Source of the DNA: Ktedonobacter robiniae
Lineage (GTDB): Bacteria; Chloroflexota; Ktedonobacteria; Ktedonobacterales; Ktedonobacteraceae
Direction of reading: 5' to 3'
Length of the DNA stretch: 64,000 nucleotides
NCBI RefSeq assembly: GCF_016587375.1
Contig: NZ_BNJG01000002.1
Location: 1,302,001 to 1,366,000 of the forward strand
How positions within the stretch are numbered: the first letter of the stretch is position 1; each line of letters begins with the position of its first letter. Made by a program: the position numbers and the translations under genes. The notes beneath the pieces are model-generated. The model saw nothing but the letters and a program-made list of their open reading frames with translations. It was not told where the DNA came from and searched no databases. Positions 5,357 to 63,299 of the stretch are shown one piece after another.

Positions 5357-5530
5357 ACGCAATGAATCCCTTCAATATACCTGTGCTTATAATAACAAAA
5401 ATACTTAATTTATAAGACTACAGCTACTTATTATACACACCATGGCAATAAAGCTCATAAGATAGGTGCCACATTGAACAGGGCTATTTCATTCTCTTCT
5501 GCTTCTCGCCTCGGTTTGCTACGCTCATCA

Positions 5531-5591
5531 GGGGAAAGGGGGTCTGAGTGGAAAAAGGCTTCGCCTTTTTCCACTCAGACCCCCTTTCCCC
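5531..5591. terminator. 29-bp palindrome downstream of prsW
   Basis: Perfect 29-bp arms (5531-5559, 5563-5591) around a TTC loop lie 23 bp beyond the PrsW stop. No T-tract follows on the minus strand. The REP-like sequence GAGCGCCGCAGGCGCGAAG abuts it at 5594-5612. Confidence 0.75.
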
Positions 5592-5593
5592 CT

Positions 5594-5612
5594 GAGCGCC
5601 GCAGGCGCGAAG
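5594..5612. repeat. REP-like repeat B, copy 1
   Basis: GAGCGCCGCAGGCGCGAAG, containing a GCGCC-GCA-GGCGC mini-hairpin, sits beside a long palindrome. Related copies are at 17237-17256 (inverted), 19835-19853, 35263-35281, 45746-45760 (inverted, partial) and 63278-63299 (diverged). Confidence 0.75.
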
Positions 5613-17236: not shown

Positions 17237-17256
17237 TTCTCGCGCCTGCGGCGCTC
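17237..17256. repeat. REP-like repeat B, copy 2 (inverted)
   Basis: CTTCTCGCGCCTGCGGCGCTC is the reverse complement of repeat B with one extra base pair. It directly abuts the palindrome at 17260-17326. Confidence 0.7.
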
Positions 17257-17259
17257 GCC

Positions 17260-17326
17260 TGGTATATGGGTTGTGATGCATGCTGGCAGCCGTAGGCTGC
17301 CAGCATGCATCACAACCCATATACCA
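17260..17326. terminator. 32-bp palindrome between reductase and P450
   Basis: Perfect 32-bp arms (17260-17291, 17295-17326) around a 3-nt loop start 6 bp past the reductase stop and lie within the presumed P450 operon. It may stop or attenuate transcription between the electron carriers and P450. Confidence 0.8.
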
Positions 17327-18931: not shown

Positions 18932-19094
18932 CCATAGGCGCCCCGTTTACGGCGCGCAAGGCGATTTATCGCACGAATACCGGATGGCTATCAACCATAT
19001 CACATGGAGAACATGCTCCGTTCTCCATAAATTGCACGTAATTTAATATTACTGCGATAAATCGCCTTACGCGCGATAAATCGGGTGTCTATGG
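18932..19094. mobile_element. MITE-like element, copy 3
   Basis: A 163-bp element has ends of 49 bp beginning CCATAG and both carrying AAGGCGATTTATCGCA. The interior holds an ATGGAGAAC/GTTCTCCAT hairpin and no gene. It sits between the TetR gene stop and the ferredoxin start and may displace or supply promoter elements for the P450 genes. Confidence 0.8.
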
Positions 19095-19764: not shown

Positions 19765-19811
19765 AAACCCTGATATAGAAAGCAAGCGGCTTGCTTTCTA
19801 TATCAGGGTTT
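19765..19811. promoter_or_regulatory. 22-bp palindrome upstream of tetR
   Basis: Perfect 22-bp arms (19765-19786, 19790-19811) with a CGG loop. By position it could be a TetR operator, but its length is nearer that of the gene-end palindromes in this window. Confidence 0.55.
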
Positions 19812-19834: not shown

Positions 19835-19853
19835 GAGCGCCGCAGGCGCGAAG
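19835..19853. repeat. REP-like repeat B, copy 3
   Basis: GAGCGCCGCAGGCGCGAAG, identical to the copy at 5594, placed between two palindromes (19765-19811 and 19866-19922). Confidence 0.75.
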
Positions 19854-19865
19854 GCGCTCAAAAAA

Positions 19866-19922
19866 ATAGGTATGTTGGCATGGGTGGCGGGATTTGCCCG
19901 CCACCCATGCCAACATACCTAT
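19866..19922. terminator. 26-bp palindrome after the FAD oxidase gene
   Basis: Perfect 26-bp arms (19866-19891, 19897-19922) with a 5-nt loop, 12 bp beyond the oxidase stop. Confidence 0.8.
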
Positions 19923-21663: not shown

Positions 21664-21730
21664 CGACGCTGCTAAAGCACGCGTCTACATATCATGTGCT
21701 TATATGTAGACGCGTGCTTTAGCAGCGTCG
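21664..21730. terminator. 29-bp palindrome
   Basis: Perfect 29-bp arms (21664-21692, 21702-21730) with a 9-nt loop. It overlaps the last codons of the fragment at 21719-22110 and lies 160 bp upstream of the FAD oxidase. Confidence 0.8.
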
Positions 21731-27409: not shown

Positions 27410-28366
27410 TTACTGCCAGGAGCTTGCCTGGTCCAGGGTCTTAATCGCGGCCTCGTCGAGCTTGAGATCAATCGCCTTCATGAGGTCATTGACCTGCTCC
27501 ACTGAGGTAGCGCTAGCAATGGGGGCCGTCATGCTGGGACGAGCGATCAGCCAGGCCAGTGCGACCTGGGCCTGCGTGGCATGGTACATCGCCGCAACCT
27601 TGTCGAGAGCTGCCAGGATGCGCTCACCGCGCTCATTCATGTAGCTCTGCTTGACTCCCTGCGCCCTTGAACTCTGAGGCAGATCCCTATCTGAGCGATA
27701 TTTACCCGTCAGGAAGCCGCTCGCCAGGCCATAGTAGGGAATGACACCAATCTGCTCTTGAAGGCAGAGAGGCTCCAGGTCACGCTCAAAATCGGCACGA
27801 TCATAGAGGTTGTAGAGCGGTTGCAGGCTCTCATAACGTGGATTGCCATGCTGCTGACTCGCCTGGAGCGAGAGCCGCAGGCGCTCAGCCGTGAAGTTTG
27901 AGGCCCCCAGCGCCCGAACCTTTCCCTGCTGCACCAGTTCGGCATAGGCCGCCATCGTCTCTTCAGGATCAGTCTCGGAATCATCCCTGTGTGACTGGTA
28001 GAGATCGATATAGTCTGTCTGCAAACGCTTGAGCGAGGCCTCAACCGCCTGCATTATATACTTGCGCGAGAGTCCCTTCTGCTCCGGCCCCATTTCAGAG
28101 CCCACCTTGGTCGCGATGATCACCTGCTCGCGGTTACTGCGCTGCTTCATCCACTTGCCCAGAATGGTTTCAGACTCTCCACCCTGATTACCAGGTACCC
28201 AGCGCGAGTAGACATCGGCGCTATCAATAAAATTGCCGCCCGCGGCGACATAGGCATCCAGTACATTGAAAGAGACGGCCTCATCTATCGTCCAGCCAAA
28301 GACATTGCCACCCAGGCAGAGCGGCACAACCTCAAGCGATGAACGACCCAATTTACGTTTCTTCAT
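27410..28366 (-). CDS. Aldo/keto reductase
   Basis: A 318-residue NAD(P)H-dependent aldo/keto reductase. Visible landmarks are MKKRKLGRSSLEVVPLCLGG, the catalytic FIDSADVYSRW (Asp and Tyr), IIATKVG with the catalytic lysine, DYIDLYQSHRDD with the His, and ALGASNF. The ATG at 28366 has GGGGAGC about ten bases upstream. It faces away from the sugar transporter remnant region but lies near it, so it could act on a carbonyl product of the same sugar; this is positional inference only. Confidence 0.92.
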   Translation of the reverse strand: MKKRKLGRSSLEVVPLCLGGNVFGWTIDEAVSFNVLDAYVAAGGNFIDSADVYSRWVPGNQGGESETILGKWMKQRSNREQVIIATKVGSEMGPEQKGLSRKYIMQAVEASLKRLQTDYIDLYQSHRDDSETDPEETMAAYAELVQQGKVRALGASNFTAERLRLSLQASQQHGNPRYESLQPLYNLYDRADFERDLEPLCLQEQIGVIPYYGLASGFLTGKYRSDRDLPQSSRAQGVKQSYMNERGERILAALDKVAAMYHATQAQVALAWLIARPSMTAPIASATSVEQVNDLMKAIDLKLDEAAIKTLDQASSWQ

Positions 28367-28928: not shown

Positions 28929-29217
28929 AGGGTATTATTCCTTCCTTGAGAGCATGTGTATACAATGCGGCCAATTGCTCAAGCATGTGCGTGTTTCCCT
29001 CCTTGGGAGGCGTTATCTCAACGATACTCCACCCAACAGATAACAAACTGCTCGCGATTGCGTGATGAATAATACTTGAGCGTCTCTATATCTATGCCAC
29101 CATCGGATAAGCAGTAAGCGGTACTTTTAGGAAACCCCGCTTCCTTCTCATCATTTTCTCATTTTTACTTCGTACACTCGCAATAAGTAGAGATTTTAGG
29201 TAATATGGTGTGGTACA
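28929..29217. other. Intergenic remnant region
   Basis: The minus strand shows a frame ending KYYSSRNREQFVICWVEYR before a stop near 29032, with no start codon, and then AAGGAGGG followed by a possible 22-codon peptide starting MLEQLAALY. These look like the debris of a decayed gene. No function is assigned. Confidence 0.35.
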
Positions 29218-29259
29218 GTAGCCACGTACGCCACAGCAGCCGCGTACGCCAGTAGCGAG
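29218..29259. repeat. Dispersed repeat C, two units
   Basis: GTAGCCACGTACGCC (29218-29232) and CAGCCGCGTACGCCAGTAGC (from 29237) are two units of a repeat that recurs at 30643-30694, 32928-32948 and 36265-36288. They lie inside a TGGTGTGGT/ACCACACCA stem. Confidence 0.7.
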
Positions 29260-29359
29260 CGCAGCACCACACCCAGAACGAGCGCCGCAAGCGCGATAGC
29301 ACAGCAACATATACAATTTATATATAATCTCTACAAAAAAAGAAAGAAGGTAGATCCCA

Positions 29360-30642: not shown

Positions 30643-30694
30643 AGTAGCCGCGTACGCCAGGGCGCAGCCCCAGTAGCCGCGTACGCCAGTAGCG
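30643..30694. repeat. Dispersed repeat C, two units
   Basis: GTAGCCGCGTACGCCAGGGC (from 30643) and GTAGCCGCGTACGCCAGTAG (from 30672) lie head to tail directly before the ribosome binding site of the response regulator. Confidence 0.8.
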
Positions 30695-30709
30695 AGAAGG
30701 AGAAAAGGT

Positions 30710-31387
30710 ATGCGCATTCTTGTCGCGGAAGATCATCCTAGCTTAGGGCCAGACATTCAGCGGGGCCTGGAGCGCTTTCACTATGTCACCGACCTGGCGA
30801 CTGATGGCGAGGACGCGCTGGCGTCCGCACTGGCGACGCCTTACGATCTGCTGATCCTCGATGTGATGCTCCCATCGCTGGATGGCTTTGAGGTGTGCCG
30901 TCGCCTGCGCAGCGCTCATCGTACCCTCCCCATTCTCTTTCTTACCGCTCGTGGCGAGATCGATGACCGCGTGCGTGGACTCGACCTGGGCGGCGATGAT
31001 TATCTCGTCAAGCCCTTTGTCTTCCGCGAGTTGGAGGCCCGTGTACGCGCGCTGTTGCGCCGCGAAAAGAGCGCTACCTCGGCAACGCTCCAGTTCGAGG
31101 ACCTAACCCTGGACACCCAGACGCGCGAGGCCTGGCGTGGCTCACGCCAGCTTACCCTCTCCAGCCGCGAATACGCCCTGCTAGAGTTTCTCCTTCATCA
31201 CCCACGCCAGGTGCTCAGCCGGGAAACCATCGCGGACCACGTCTGGGATGGCGAGGCCCCCTACCAATCGAATATCATCGACGTGTATATCCGCTATCTC
31301 CGCAACAAGCTCTGCGCATCGGGCGAACCCGATGTCATTCAGGCGATTCGTGGCGTCGGCTACCAGCTCAAAGGGAAAACTATATGA
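30710..31387 (+). CDS. OmpR/PhoB family response regulator
   Basis: A 225-residue two-component regulator. The receiver domain has the acidic pair ED (residues 7-8), phosphoacceptor D51 in LILDVMLPSLDGF and K101 in YLVKPF. The C-terminal winged helix has LSSREYALLEFLLHHPRQVL and VDVYIRYLRNKL (as IDVYIRYLRNKL). AAGGAGAAAAGGT precedes the ATG. The stop overlaps the start of the kinase gene (ATGA), so the pair is translationally coupled. Confidence 0.95.
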   Translation: MRILVAEDHPSLGPDIQRGLERFHYVTDLATDGEDALASALATPYDLLILDVMLPSLDGFEVCRRLRSAHRTLPILFLTARGEIDDRVRGLDLGGDDYLVKPFVFRELEARVRALLRREKSATSATLQFEDLTLDTQTREAWRGSRQLTLSSREYALLEFLLHHPRQVLSRETIADHVWDGEAPYQSNIIDVYIRYLRNKLCASGEPDVIQAIRGVGYQLKGKTI

Positions 31388-35194: not shown

Positions 35195-35262
35195 AGGTGA
35201 AAATGTATGGGCACGGAGGCGTGGGCGGACGCCCACGCCTCCGTGCCCATACATTTTCACCT
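35195..35262. repeat. 33-bp palindrome in a divergent region
   Basis: Perfect 33-bp arms (35195-35227, 35230-35262) around a GA loop. Unlike most others it is not at a gene end. Repeat B follows directly. Confidence 0.85.
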
Positions 35263-35281
35263 GAGCGCCGCAGGTGCGAAG
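35263..35281. repeat. REP-like repeat B, copy 4
   Basis: GAGCGCCGCAGGTGCGAAG, one base different from the copy at 5594, joined to the 33-bp palindrome. Confidence 0.75.
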
Positions 35282-35727: not shown

Positions 35728-36246
35728 ATGCCACTACGCAATATTGTTATGCTGGGCGACCCCATTCTGCGCCAGAAGGCCAAACGCATCCACCGCTTCG
35801 ATGCCTCGCTGCGCAAGCTCGTTAAGGATATGTTTGAGACGATGCATGCCAATGACGGCGCGGGTCTCGCCGCGCCCCAGATTGGCCTCTCGCTGCGCCT
35901 CTTTGTCGTGGAACTTGAAGATCCCAAGACTGAGAAATACTACAAGGTCGCCATGGCGAACCCGGAGATTATCAAGACCGAGGGCGAGCAGACCGGCCTG
36001 GATGGTTGCCTGAGCATTCCAGGCTACTACGGCGTGAATGTGCGCCGTGCCAATAAGGTCATCGTCAAAGGCCAGGACCTGAATGGCAAGCCGATGAAGG
36101 TCCTGGCCGAAGGCTACTACGCCTGGGCACTCCAACATGAGATTGATCACCTGGACGGCGTGCTCTTCATCGACCTGCTCGACAGTCCCGAAGACTTGCG
36201 CGAGGTACGCCATAGCGACGACGAAAAAGAAGAAGTTCTCAAATAA
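35728..36246 (+). CDS. def: Peptide deformylase
   Basis: A 172-residue deformylase that removes the N-formyl group from new proteins. The three motifs are GAGLAAPQIG (46-55), DGCLSIPGYYG with metal ligand C94, and QHEIDHLDG with H137, catalytic E138 and H141. Motif 2 has Asp where EGCLS is usual. It ends in the arm of a palindrome shared with the convergent PIG-L gene. Confidence 0.95.
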   Translation: MPLRNIVMLGDPILRQKAKRIHRFDASLRKLVKDMFETMHANDGAGLAAPQIGLSLRLFVVELEDPKTEKYYKVAMANPEIIKTEGEQTGLDGCLSIPGYYGVNVRRANKVIVKGQDLNGKPMKVLAEGYYAWALQHEIDHLDGVLFIDLLDSPEDLREVRHSDDEKEEVLK

Positions 36247-36310
36247 GTGGAGTATGATACCGTAGCCCGCTACTGGCGTACGCGGCTACGGTATCATACT
36301 CCACTTATTT
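36241..36310. terminator. 27-bp palindrome between convergent genes
   Basis: Perfect 27-bp arms (36241-36267, 36284-36310) overlap the stop codons of def and of the PIG-L gene. The 16-nt loop plus adjoining bases is a repeat C unit. Confidence 0.85.
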
Positions 36311-37156
36311 GAAATACTTGATAGGTGGGCAGGCTGGCCGTGGATGCGCGCCGCACCCCCTCAAAGAGGTCCTGCTCCACGCTTCGCCCGCTATTGACCA
36401 GGCTGAAGGCGCGGTAGAACTCCTGCGGACCCCATAGCCGCTTATGGTCCTCAACCGAGAGTCTGGGCAGTTTCTCCAGGGGCGGAATCTGCGTGATGTG
36501 ACTGCGAACGGCGTTCCAGGCCTGGCGCCAGTAGGCACTGGTATCCAGGCGTGTCGTTACGGCCCACTTCATCCAGGAGAGGCAGGTGCGCTCCTGCCCG
36601 TCGATATGCATGATCATATCGCCAAATATAGGGGTGTAGTGCGCGAACCAATCCTGGGTGGAGACGCGATAATAGAGCTTTGCTACGCGATGAGGACCCA
36701 GGTGCCAGCCCTGTCCATAGCCCTGGTCGGCTGCGCACAGCACGGCGGCCGTCGTAAACTGCGAGATGGCAATATGGTCGGGATGCCCATACAGTCCATC
36801 CGGGCCAAAGGTCACAACCACGTCGGGTCGCACCTGGCGCATCAGCGCCGTGATCTTCGCCACGGCTTCATCCCCATCTGCCTGGTCCAGGTCGCCGTCG
36901 ATATAGTTTAGAAAGTCCAGGCGCGCTATCCCTAGTGCGCGACAGGCGGCTCGCAGTTCCTCCTCACGTATACGCCCCAGACCCTCCTGGCCTGGATACT
37001 CGCTCCAATCCCTGAACCAGCCACGCTCACCGCGTGTGGCAACCACCAGGGAGATCTCCACACCCTCCGCGGCATACTTCGCTAGCGTGCCCCCAGGGCA
37101 ATTGACTCATCATCCGGGTGCGCCAGCACGCACATCAACTTCAATGGGGTAGGCAT
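36294..37156 (-). CDS. PIG-L (LmbE) family deacetylase, frameshifted
   Basis: Reading from the ATG at 37156 gives LMCVLAHPDDESIALG, the zinc-binding start of PIG-L deacetylases, and then a stop after a five-base run (37090-37094). One added base restores GTLAKYAAEGVEISLVVATR, which continues without a break through GPDGLYGHPDHIAISQF to the stop at 36294. GGAAGGAAAG precedes the ATG. A GTG-started version from 37061 would lack the AHPDDE metal site. The one-base gap in a homopolymer is either a sequencing error or a real inactivation. Family members remove N-acetyl groups from sugar-containing thiols, lipids or antibiotics. Confidence 0.85.
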
Positions 37157-48695: not shown

Positions 48696-48767
48696 GGTGT
48701 GATTTATGGGCAGGGTCTGTGACGGGAGCATTCGCTCCCGTCACAGACCCTGCCCATAAATCACACC
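48696..48767. repeat. 34-bp palindrome upstream of the sugar operon promoter
   Basis: Perfect 34-bp arms (48696-48729, 48734-48767) around an ATTC loop lie in a divergent region, about 10 bp before the -35 box. It may insulate the operon from readthrough. Confidence 0.85.
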
Positions 48768-55535: not shown

Positions 55536-55691
55536 CATAGGCGCCATATGTATGACTTTGCTGGCAAATTTTGTCCGGACAAGTTCTGAGCGTGGAAAGG
55601 TATCCAGCGGCTTGAGAGACGGGCGTTCTCACAAGCCTGTTCGGGCAGCTTGACAAAATTTGCCAGCAAAGTCATACATGTGGCGCCTATG
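55536..55691. repeat. 156-bp element with 40-bp inverted ends
   Basis: The arms 55536-55575 and 55652-55691 pair over 40 bp with a single G-T type mismatch and begin CATAGGCGCC, the same terminus as the MITE-like family. The 76-nt interior contains a smaller GGCTTGAGA/TCTCACAAGCC stem. It lies at the GH43 stop. Confidence 0.85.
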
Positions 55692-63204: not shown

Positions 63205-63277
63205 ATAACATAGGGGTGATAGCGTGATGATGGGCTGGTTTCGCCAGCCCATCATCACGCTATCACCCCTATGTTAT
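63205..63277. terminator. 34-bp palindrome between convergent genes
   Basis: Perfect 34-bp arms (63205-63238, 63244-63277) with a 5-nt loop between xfp and the LuxR-type regulator. A diverged repeat B copy follows at 63278-63299. Confidence 0.85.
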
Positions 63278-63299
63278 GCGAAGCACCGCAGGTGCAAGC
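63278..63299. repeat. REP-like repeat B, diverged
   Basis: GCGAAGCACCGCAGGTGCAA keeps the CACC-GCA-GGTG hairpin of repeat B with compensating changes in both arms, next to a palindrome as at 5594 and 35263. Confidence 0.55.

Follow-up and report, generated by a model that had tools for sequence, protein, structure and literature searches.

Template switching and quasipalindrome correction have been described, in the passages available from PMC8794818 and PMC8604942 (PMC7202029 being a further paper listed on the subject), as scattered events in rRNA, in yeast coding DNA and in E. coli, with arm homogenisation and spacer inversion as their signatures (PMC8604942, PMC8794818). The palindromes of Ktedonobacter analysed here share with these systems the homogenised arms, the simultaneous symmetric changes, the inverted spacer or loop and the stems arising from short seeds. 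They differ in scale, with 207 perfect palindromes (arm of at least 18) in 1.2 Mb and loops flipped in 10 of 31 testable ortholog comparisons, and in setting, the process being at work here in the core of a mobile element. A MITE is an element with terminal inverted repeats (TIRs) that is mobilised in trans by an insertion sequence. The element carrying the repeat under study (repeat B) resembles a MITE in being short and non-coding, with an 18 bp TIR and a target duplication of 9-10 bp, and in having its TIR in common with a longer element; it is unlike other MITEs in its core, a perfect palindrome that shows near-total sequence difference between copies and is self-matched within each.

Two further systems invite comparison. 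REP/BIME sequences with their RAYT are, in the passages available from PMC8266576, likewise short hairpins between genes, repeated hundreds of times, and in a BIME two different hairpins (here B and a module C) flank a centre; the present elements differ in having no GTAG, no Y1 gene in the genome, and a TIR with target duplication. Bidirectional intrinsic terminators are similar in placing a hairpin a few bp past stop codons, one per convergent gap, whereas the arms here are 20-39 bp long, are nearly always mismatch-free and in most cases lack a T-tract. A survey of perfect inverted repeats covers 118,019 genomes (PMC13155455), and there, too, perfect arms are enriched at gene ends; the passages available from that survey contain no loop-inversion or mobile-element analysis, and its main text makes no mention of Ktedonobacter or Chloroflexota. 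The word stem 'palindrom' is absent from the main text of a Ktedonobacteria genome paper (PMC13289182), and among papers on Ktedonobacter repeats and on bacterial perfect palindromes, taken by title and beginning of the abstract, none describes these structures. Within the literature searched, the mechanism appears to be known, and its scale and its coupling to a MITE appear to be new. The reading developed below, to which we assign a probability of about two in three, is that B forms the hairpin just inside one end of a MITE and that the palindromes are kept perfect by DNA-level template switching at replication.

Repeat B and its association with palindromes

The window is the whole stretch of 64,000 nucleotides analysed (G000:C2:1302001-1366000), part of a 10.7 Mb Ktedonobacter genome (G000, the own genome). 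It was compared with the same-genus relatives K. racemifer DSM 44963 (G001) and Ktedonobacter sp. SOSP1-85 (G003), substitution between the aligned DNA of the three being 5.2-6.9%, and more widely with Dictyobacter kobayashii (G026). Repeat B (GAGCGCCGCAGGCGCGAAG) has 6 matches in the window at up to 3 mismatches, against 0.07 expected from shuffles. Its single strand folds with -6.5 kcal/mol as (((..(((((...)))))..))), a hairpin GCGCC-GCA-GGCGC with tandem G-A mismatches and outer CCT/AGG pairs, and no Rfam family is found at gathering score anywhere in the window.

The sequence-only reading had placed B beside the palindromes at 5531, 17260, 35195 and 63205 and between those at 19765 and 19866. 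This placement is borne out with slightly shifted coordinates (Table 1), and all the palindromes so named are perfect. The proposed distance of about 3 bp holds at 5531, 17260 and 35195 (0-3 bp), the copy beside the palindrome at 63205 being 4 bp away; B at 19835-19853 sits 23 bp from palindrome 19765-19811 and 12 bp from 19866-19922. To call the arms unrelated was nearly right, as aligned arms differ between copies by 0.47 compared with 0.53 for shuffled ones. Given that both sides of its stem have changed (GCGCC/GGCGC to GCACC/GGTGC, a compensated alteration), the copy at 63282 counts as B by its structure more than by its sequence. The palindrome at the 29280 copy is degraded in the own genome and perfect in SOSP1-85, and a B match at 27870, within a predicted ORF, has kept its place in two relatives and has no palindrome. 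No right TIR is recognised at the element of the 5531 palindrome.

Table 1. Repeat B copies, palindromes and element parts in the window
Feature	Position	Strand	Remark
Left terminal inverted repeat CAGGGCTATTTCATTCTC	5479..5496	+	1 mismatch to TIR pattern
Hairpin module C (degenerate GCCTCGGCTCGCTACGC), 2 mismatches	5508..5524	+	on the palindrome's far side from B
Perfect palindrome, 29 bp arms, loop TTC, element core	5531..5591	.	beside B 5594
Repeat B, exact	5594..5612	+	2 bp from palindrome 5531-5591
Repeat B, 2 mismatches	17238..17256	-	3 bp from palindrome 17260-17326
Perfect palindrome, 32 bp arms	17260..17326	.	
Perfect palindrome, 23 bp arms	19765..19811	.	G003: left arm alone at same place
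Repeat B, exact	19835..19853	+	right-arm remnant CACACCCTTACCCCT just before
Perfect palindrome, 26 bp arms	19866..19922	.	
Repeat B, 3 mismatches, real copy	29280..29298	+	absent from the sequence-only reading
Perfect palindrome, 33 bp arms	35195..35262	.	
Repeat B, 1 mismatch	35263..35281	+	0 bp from palindrome 35195-35262
Non-B palindrome	36239..36312	.	G003: arms replaced by another perfect pair; G001: absent
Non-B perfect palindrome, 34 bp arms	48696..48767	.	
Perfect palindrome, 34 bp arms	63205..63277	.	B present
Repeat B variant AGCACCGCAGGTGCAAG	63282..63298	+	4 bp from palindrome 63205-63277

The association extends genome-wide and is one-sided. The own genome (10.7 Mb) holds 166 copies of B at up to 2 mismatches, compared with 1 for the reversed control pattern. 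In an 864 kb sample (B with up to 2 mismatches, perfect palindromes with arm of at least 16), 26 of 30 copies have a palindrome no more than 15 bp away, against 2.4% at random places, so that copies of B are not mostly away from palindromes, the finding that would have told against the association; within 60 bp, the GAG end faces the palindrome 22 times and the other end once, with 3 overlaps. Among 135 distinct B loci (up to 3 mismatches) pooled from the own genome, K. racemifer and SOSP1-85, most of which keep the 5-bp stem and 3-nt loop, a palindrome with arm of at least 14 lies within 14 bp on the GAG side at 97 and on the other side at 5. The GAG side is without perfect palindrome at 38 loci, and many B loci lacking a perfect one hold a half or mismatched one; we read the half-palindromes as decay, the direction being a reading rather than a proof. 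The exact 20-mer of B, compared over 80 of at least 107 stretches, has a palindrome at 22 of 29 places in Ktedonobacteria (28 Ktedonobacter, one Dictyobacter) and at 0 of 59 outside Ktedonobacteria, both among the matches listed. Those 59 matches rule out B as a universal palindrome partner.

Many of the 20-mer matches outside Ktedonobacteria fall in a different repeat, GTCATCCTGAGCG...CGAAGGAT. The core of B occurs within a different dispersed repeat TGTCATCCTGAGCG-CCGCAGG-CGCGAAGGATCTGCT (L183-L260, mostly Gemmatimonadetes records, in several phyla), with a palindrome in none of the copies examined.

That B is a recognition signal for palindrome formation, or for a process that makes or keeps the palindromes as the sequence-only reading had proposed, is not supported. 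B is absent near 163 of the 207 palindromes and present at 44, and G002 and G009, with 1 and 0 B matches, still reach palindrome densities of 9 and 20 per 100 kb, which implies that palindromes do not need B. At the B locus 488271 of SOSP1-85, the K. racemifer ortholog is without B and has the far flank CTCGCAAGCTCGCCGCAGG reverse-complemented in its place: the supposed signal has itself given way to the opposite flank in mirror image. A more specific form of the idea, B seeding palindromes through its hairpin as fold-back primer or pause site, could draw on the 97 to 5 asymmetry. We consider it very improbable, in view of the many palindromes without B and of the bare 20-mers outside Ktedonobacteria among the matches listed, and given that the order within the MITE already explains the one-sidedness. 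No fresh MITE insertion with B and without palindrome that later gained one was seen with certainty.

The probable MITE that carries repeat B

Repeat B is the subterminal hairpin of a non-coding MITE of 160-185 bp, which reads 18-bp TIR, hairpin C, palindrome (arms of 20-35 bp), B and second TIR, the TIR pattern being CAGGGCT(A/T)T(C/T)(C/T)AATTCTC. B keeps company with palindromes because both ride in the same small transposon, and it is one-sided because the order inside the MITE is conserved. Hairpin C is found on the palindrome's far side in 15 of 96 copies (up to 4 mismatches; flank alignment). TIRs stand at both ends of L079, L096, L215, L278, L010 and L182. The target duplication, 9-10 bp in most intact copies, is exact at L096 (160 bp, TIR 18/18, TCAATTAAA), L215 (185 bp, TIR 18/18, GATGTCAAG) and L010 (163 bp, CATACATATC) and has one mismatch at L182 (172 bp); L079 and L278 have their TIRs and no target duplication. 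L079 and L096 are nearly identical 160-bp copies from the relative G010.

At up to 4 mismatches, 13 of 134 B loci have a TIR, compared with 4 of 2,000 random places and none of the 163 palindromes without B, and both TIRs are kept at 5 of the 134 loci; B copies without TIRs would be decayed MITEs. A subfamily of B ending in GARGTC has a TIR at 1 of 34 (up to 5 mismatches) and may be another family. The own genome contains 34 TIR matches, against 0 for the reversed control. Fourteen of these make up seven pairs, each spanning exactly 1,336 bp, and at least 7 of the remaining matches are within 130 bp of listed B copies. The seven pairs are located at G000:C1:879071-880406, C1:3161169-3162504, C1:4208678-4210013, C2:12179-13514, C2:717987-719322, C5:230995-232330 and C7:92198-93533. 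K. racemifer has two TIR pairs of about 1.5 kb, and the loci examined include no TIR pair about 1.3 kb apart. The shared ends and the spacing, taken by coordinates, suggest that the short element is a MITE of a putative 1,336-bp insertion sequence, whose presumed transposase would probably move it in trans. Two TIR matches in viral contigs, considered as an insertion sequence there, were both chance, with no partner at the right distance.

Y1 transposases are absent from the own genome and from G002, and numerous in K. racemifer (20 matches) and SOSP1-85 (42). The sequence-only reading had suggested a REP-associated Y1 enzyme, by which B would be a REP recognised by Y1 (TnpA-REP) and the same enzyme would make or maintain the palindromes. 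Like a REP, B is indeed a small hairpin located between genes, internally mismatched and present in 100-200 copies (166 against the control's 1), and both sister genomes carry Y1 transposases. The account is nonetheless scarcely credible. The suggested genome search for a Y1 (RAYT/IS200-like) transposase, by Y1_Tnp (PF01797), gave 0 matches in the own genome despite its 166 B copies, controls being positive in 5 of 14, and none of the 36 Y1 places compared in SOSP1-85 is within 2 kb of the 100 listed of its 139 B copies. The intact elements are bounded by TIRs and target duplications; Y1 elements are not known to carry either. Beside the B hairpin, 135 copies show no GTAG-like tetranucleotide on either strand, a GTAG-type tetranucleotide 5' of the palindrome being a mark of REPs in the passages available from PMC8266576; positions -6 to -1 most often read A, C, C, C, C and T, and the 3' side reads GAAG/GAGG. 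The suggested link to a mobile element was right in kind, and the TIRs common to the 1.34 kb element explain mobility better than a Y1 enzyme does.

Number and position of the palindromes

The palindrome census covers 1.2 Mb, with genes called by a simple codon-usage script and positions relative to them hence approximate. It gives 247 perfect palindromes with arm of at least 14 and 207 with arm of at least 18; the arms are mostly 23-31, the longest 39, and the commonest loop is 3. A size-matched Markov sequence yields a single palindrome of arm 14 and nothing beyond it, and no palindrome above arm 14 occurs in 200 kb of E. coli K-12. By arithmetic, and if the sample is representative, the genome would hold about 1,850. 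Per 100 kb, the own genome has 15.2 palindromes, SOSP1-85 17.0, K. racemifer 20.8 and G002 9; samples of 20-40 kb give 20 for G009, 10 for G019 and 10 for D. kobayashii, and there are 0 in 40 kb of G007 and 0 in 20 kb of G051.

The 207 palindromes are distributed over convergent (61), tandem (106) and divergent (27) gaps, predicted genes (12) and the edge (1). Counted by gap, 61/117 convergent, 99/350 tandem and 26/150 divergent gaps have a palindrome, and the 61 convergent palindromes occupy 61 different gaps. In tandem gaps, 88 of 106 lie closer to the upstream stop, and the median distance to the stop codon is 22 bp (tandem) or 7 bp (convergent). A role as transcription terminator or mRNA 3' end would explain these positions. 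The share in convergent gaps is lower for palindromes with B (7/44) than for those without (54/163), which fits two populations, gene-end hairpins and B-elements; the palindromes without B, several times as numerous, are mostly found at the 3' ends of genes. TTTT within 10 nt after the stem is found at 7.9% of 228 ends compared with a background of 3.9%, and there is a slight downstream enrichment of T (at least 5 T of 10: 22% against 11.6%). The T-tract of an intrinsic terminator is thus lacking overall, and a minority of the palindromes may qualify.

Selection at the RNA level alone, with the palindromes as terminators or mRNA 3' ends and their pairing kept by ordinary compensatory substitution, is favoured by the preference for convergent and tandem over divergent gaps, by the proximity to upstream stops and by the T enrichment. 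As a full account it is unlikely, for it explains position and not perfection. Among 212 stems of at least 20 pairs, 180 have no mismatch, 28 have one and 4 have two, which is beyond what hairpin stability needs. The mismatches are 16 G-T, 17 A-C and 3 other; the 19 that can be oriented by gene strand, a small number, divide into 10 wobble in the transcript and 9 in the antisense. If the hairpin were selected as RNA, G-U should be favoured in the transcript, and the lack of wobble bias argues for perfection at the DNA level. Neither the absence of a T-tract at most palindromes nor loops that are exact reverse complements of each other between species agree with RNA-level selection.

Arm perfection and its changes between relatives

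Palindrome perfection looks like a DNA-level property: arms diverge by 0.47 between copies and by 16 of 2,889 pairs (0.55%) within a copy. Comparison of the own genome with SOSP1-85 anchored 45 palindromes (16 of 61 unanchored), of which 22 were identical or similar, 7 diverged, 10 matched in place by an unrelated perfect palindrome and 6 without counterpart. With K. racemifer the corresponding numbers were 11, 3, 4 and 1 for 19 anchored (42 unanchored), and between SOSP1-85 and K. racemifer 28, 9, 5 and 11 for 53 anchored (49 unanchored). Over 37 in-register comparisons with 1,045 pairs, 992 pairs were unchanged, 32 had paired double changes (14 of them from one replaced locus) and 21 were changed on one side; independent change would, by arithmetic, yield less than 1 paired double. 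The ratio of double to single changes is biased because the loci were chosen as palindromes in both genomes. The count of loop inversions is independent of that choice: 31 testable ortholog comparisons gave 10 inverted, 17 same and 4 unclear, with 6 further loops too short for the test, and the inversions trace to about 8 distinct loci.

Individual loci illustrate each kind of change. At 63205 the arms are identical and the loop reads TTTCG in the own genome and CGAAA in SOSP1-85. The palindrome at 48696, also with identical arms, has ATTC in the own genome and K. racemifer and GAAT in SOSP1-85; as it is a non-B palindrome, B is dispensable for loop inversion. The SOSP1-85 ortholog of 17260 has other arms, likewise perfect, with B and flanks conserved. 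At 35195 the arms in K. racemifer differ symmetrically and extend into the first base of B, and SOSP1-85 has an unrelated palindrome at the place. The palindrome at 36239 differs from that of SOSP1-85 by 14 paired changes, and paired changes within the palindrome also separate L079 from L096 (AGTG/CACT versus ATCG/CGAT). Outside the window, at own locus 326262 of the joined block, the palindrome extends into GAGC of B, with mirrored GCTC opposite; the K. racemifer counterparts are GAAC and GTTC. Symmetric multi-base changes and conversion of quasi- to perfect palindromes are thus both found, the direction being unpolarised at most loci. Paired changes and loop inversion between species occur in palindromes without B too, and perfection appears to be a separate process that acts on non-B palindromes as well. 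Where a relative has no similar palindrome (83 cases), 8 retain one arm only, 10 both arms, usually in imperfect form, and 65 neither; none of 83 shuffled arms scores as high as the single-arm matches.

These patterns are consistent with template switching during replication, whereby the replicating strand would fold back or switch to the sister template and one palindrome arm would serve to rewrite the other. Such rewriting would correct mismatches, change both arms at once and flip the loop; it could sometimes overwrite the flanks, even B, and a short seed could give rise to a new palindrome. Arm-to-arm copying through recombination, by cruciform extrusion and resolution or by gene conversion, would homogenise arms and invert loops just the same. 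It does not, however, easily give partial flank mirrors or seed-born palindromes with one ancestral arm, and 20-35 bp is short for homologous recombination, so that we hold it to be rather unlikely and infer template switching at replication as the copying process.

The nucleases checked in 31 genomes revealed no replication or repair defect by which template switching might become more frequent. Loss of a hairpin nuclease was rejected as the cause, since 30 of 31 genomes have the exonuclease VII large subunit, whether they are rich in palindromes or not. For SbcD, 0 of 31 genomes pass the curated cut-off and 29 have weaker matches, and its loss was likewise rejected: it does not discriminate, because palindrome-poor relatives are also below the cut-off. 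The SbcD-like proteins of the 31 genomes are weaker phosphoesterase matches alone.

Tentatively, Ktedonobacter might possess an unusually active fold-back copying that continually writes, corrects, flips and replaces some two thousand perfect palindromes of 20-35 bp, most of them at gene ends, and a MITE family would have adopted a palindrome of this kind as its core. Were this so, symmetry would be inherited as form and the letters would not, each MITE copy being self-matched and nearly unrelated to the others. The element is a clear example of a mobile-element core with constant symmetry and freely drifting sequence, and bears on the question of how long perfect stems remain perfect. The genus offers many natural replicates, syntenic at 93-97% identity, for counting and dating template switching in relation to the direction of replication. 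Such palindromes should not be taken for conserved protein-binding sites or for REP/RAYT elements.

Other repeats accompany these palindromes. A second palindrome family has near-constant arms (CGACGCTGCTAAAGCACGCGTCTACATAT) and variable loops; it occurs at many places in L032, L033, L043, L051 and L070 and in the window at 21664-21730, where the copy is identical in the own genome and SOSP1-85 and has one paired change in K. racemifer. A third repeat, GTAGCCGCGTACGCCAGTAGCGG, is variously a perfect palindrome, a tandem or part of other palindromes (L031 9142, L043 494, L047 4454 and 16850; in the window at about 29200-29260, 30650-30720 and 36239-36312). Longer inverted repeats starting CATAGGCGCC, with 67-76 nt between the arms, lie at 55536-55691 and 18932-19094 of the window and are probably another MITE-like family. 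A repeat of about 92 bp (L056 10482-10573) has dozens of 84-97% identical places in SOSP1-85.
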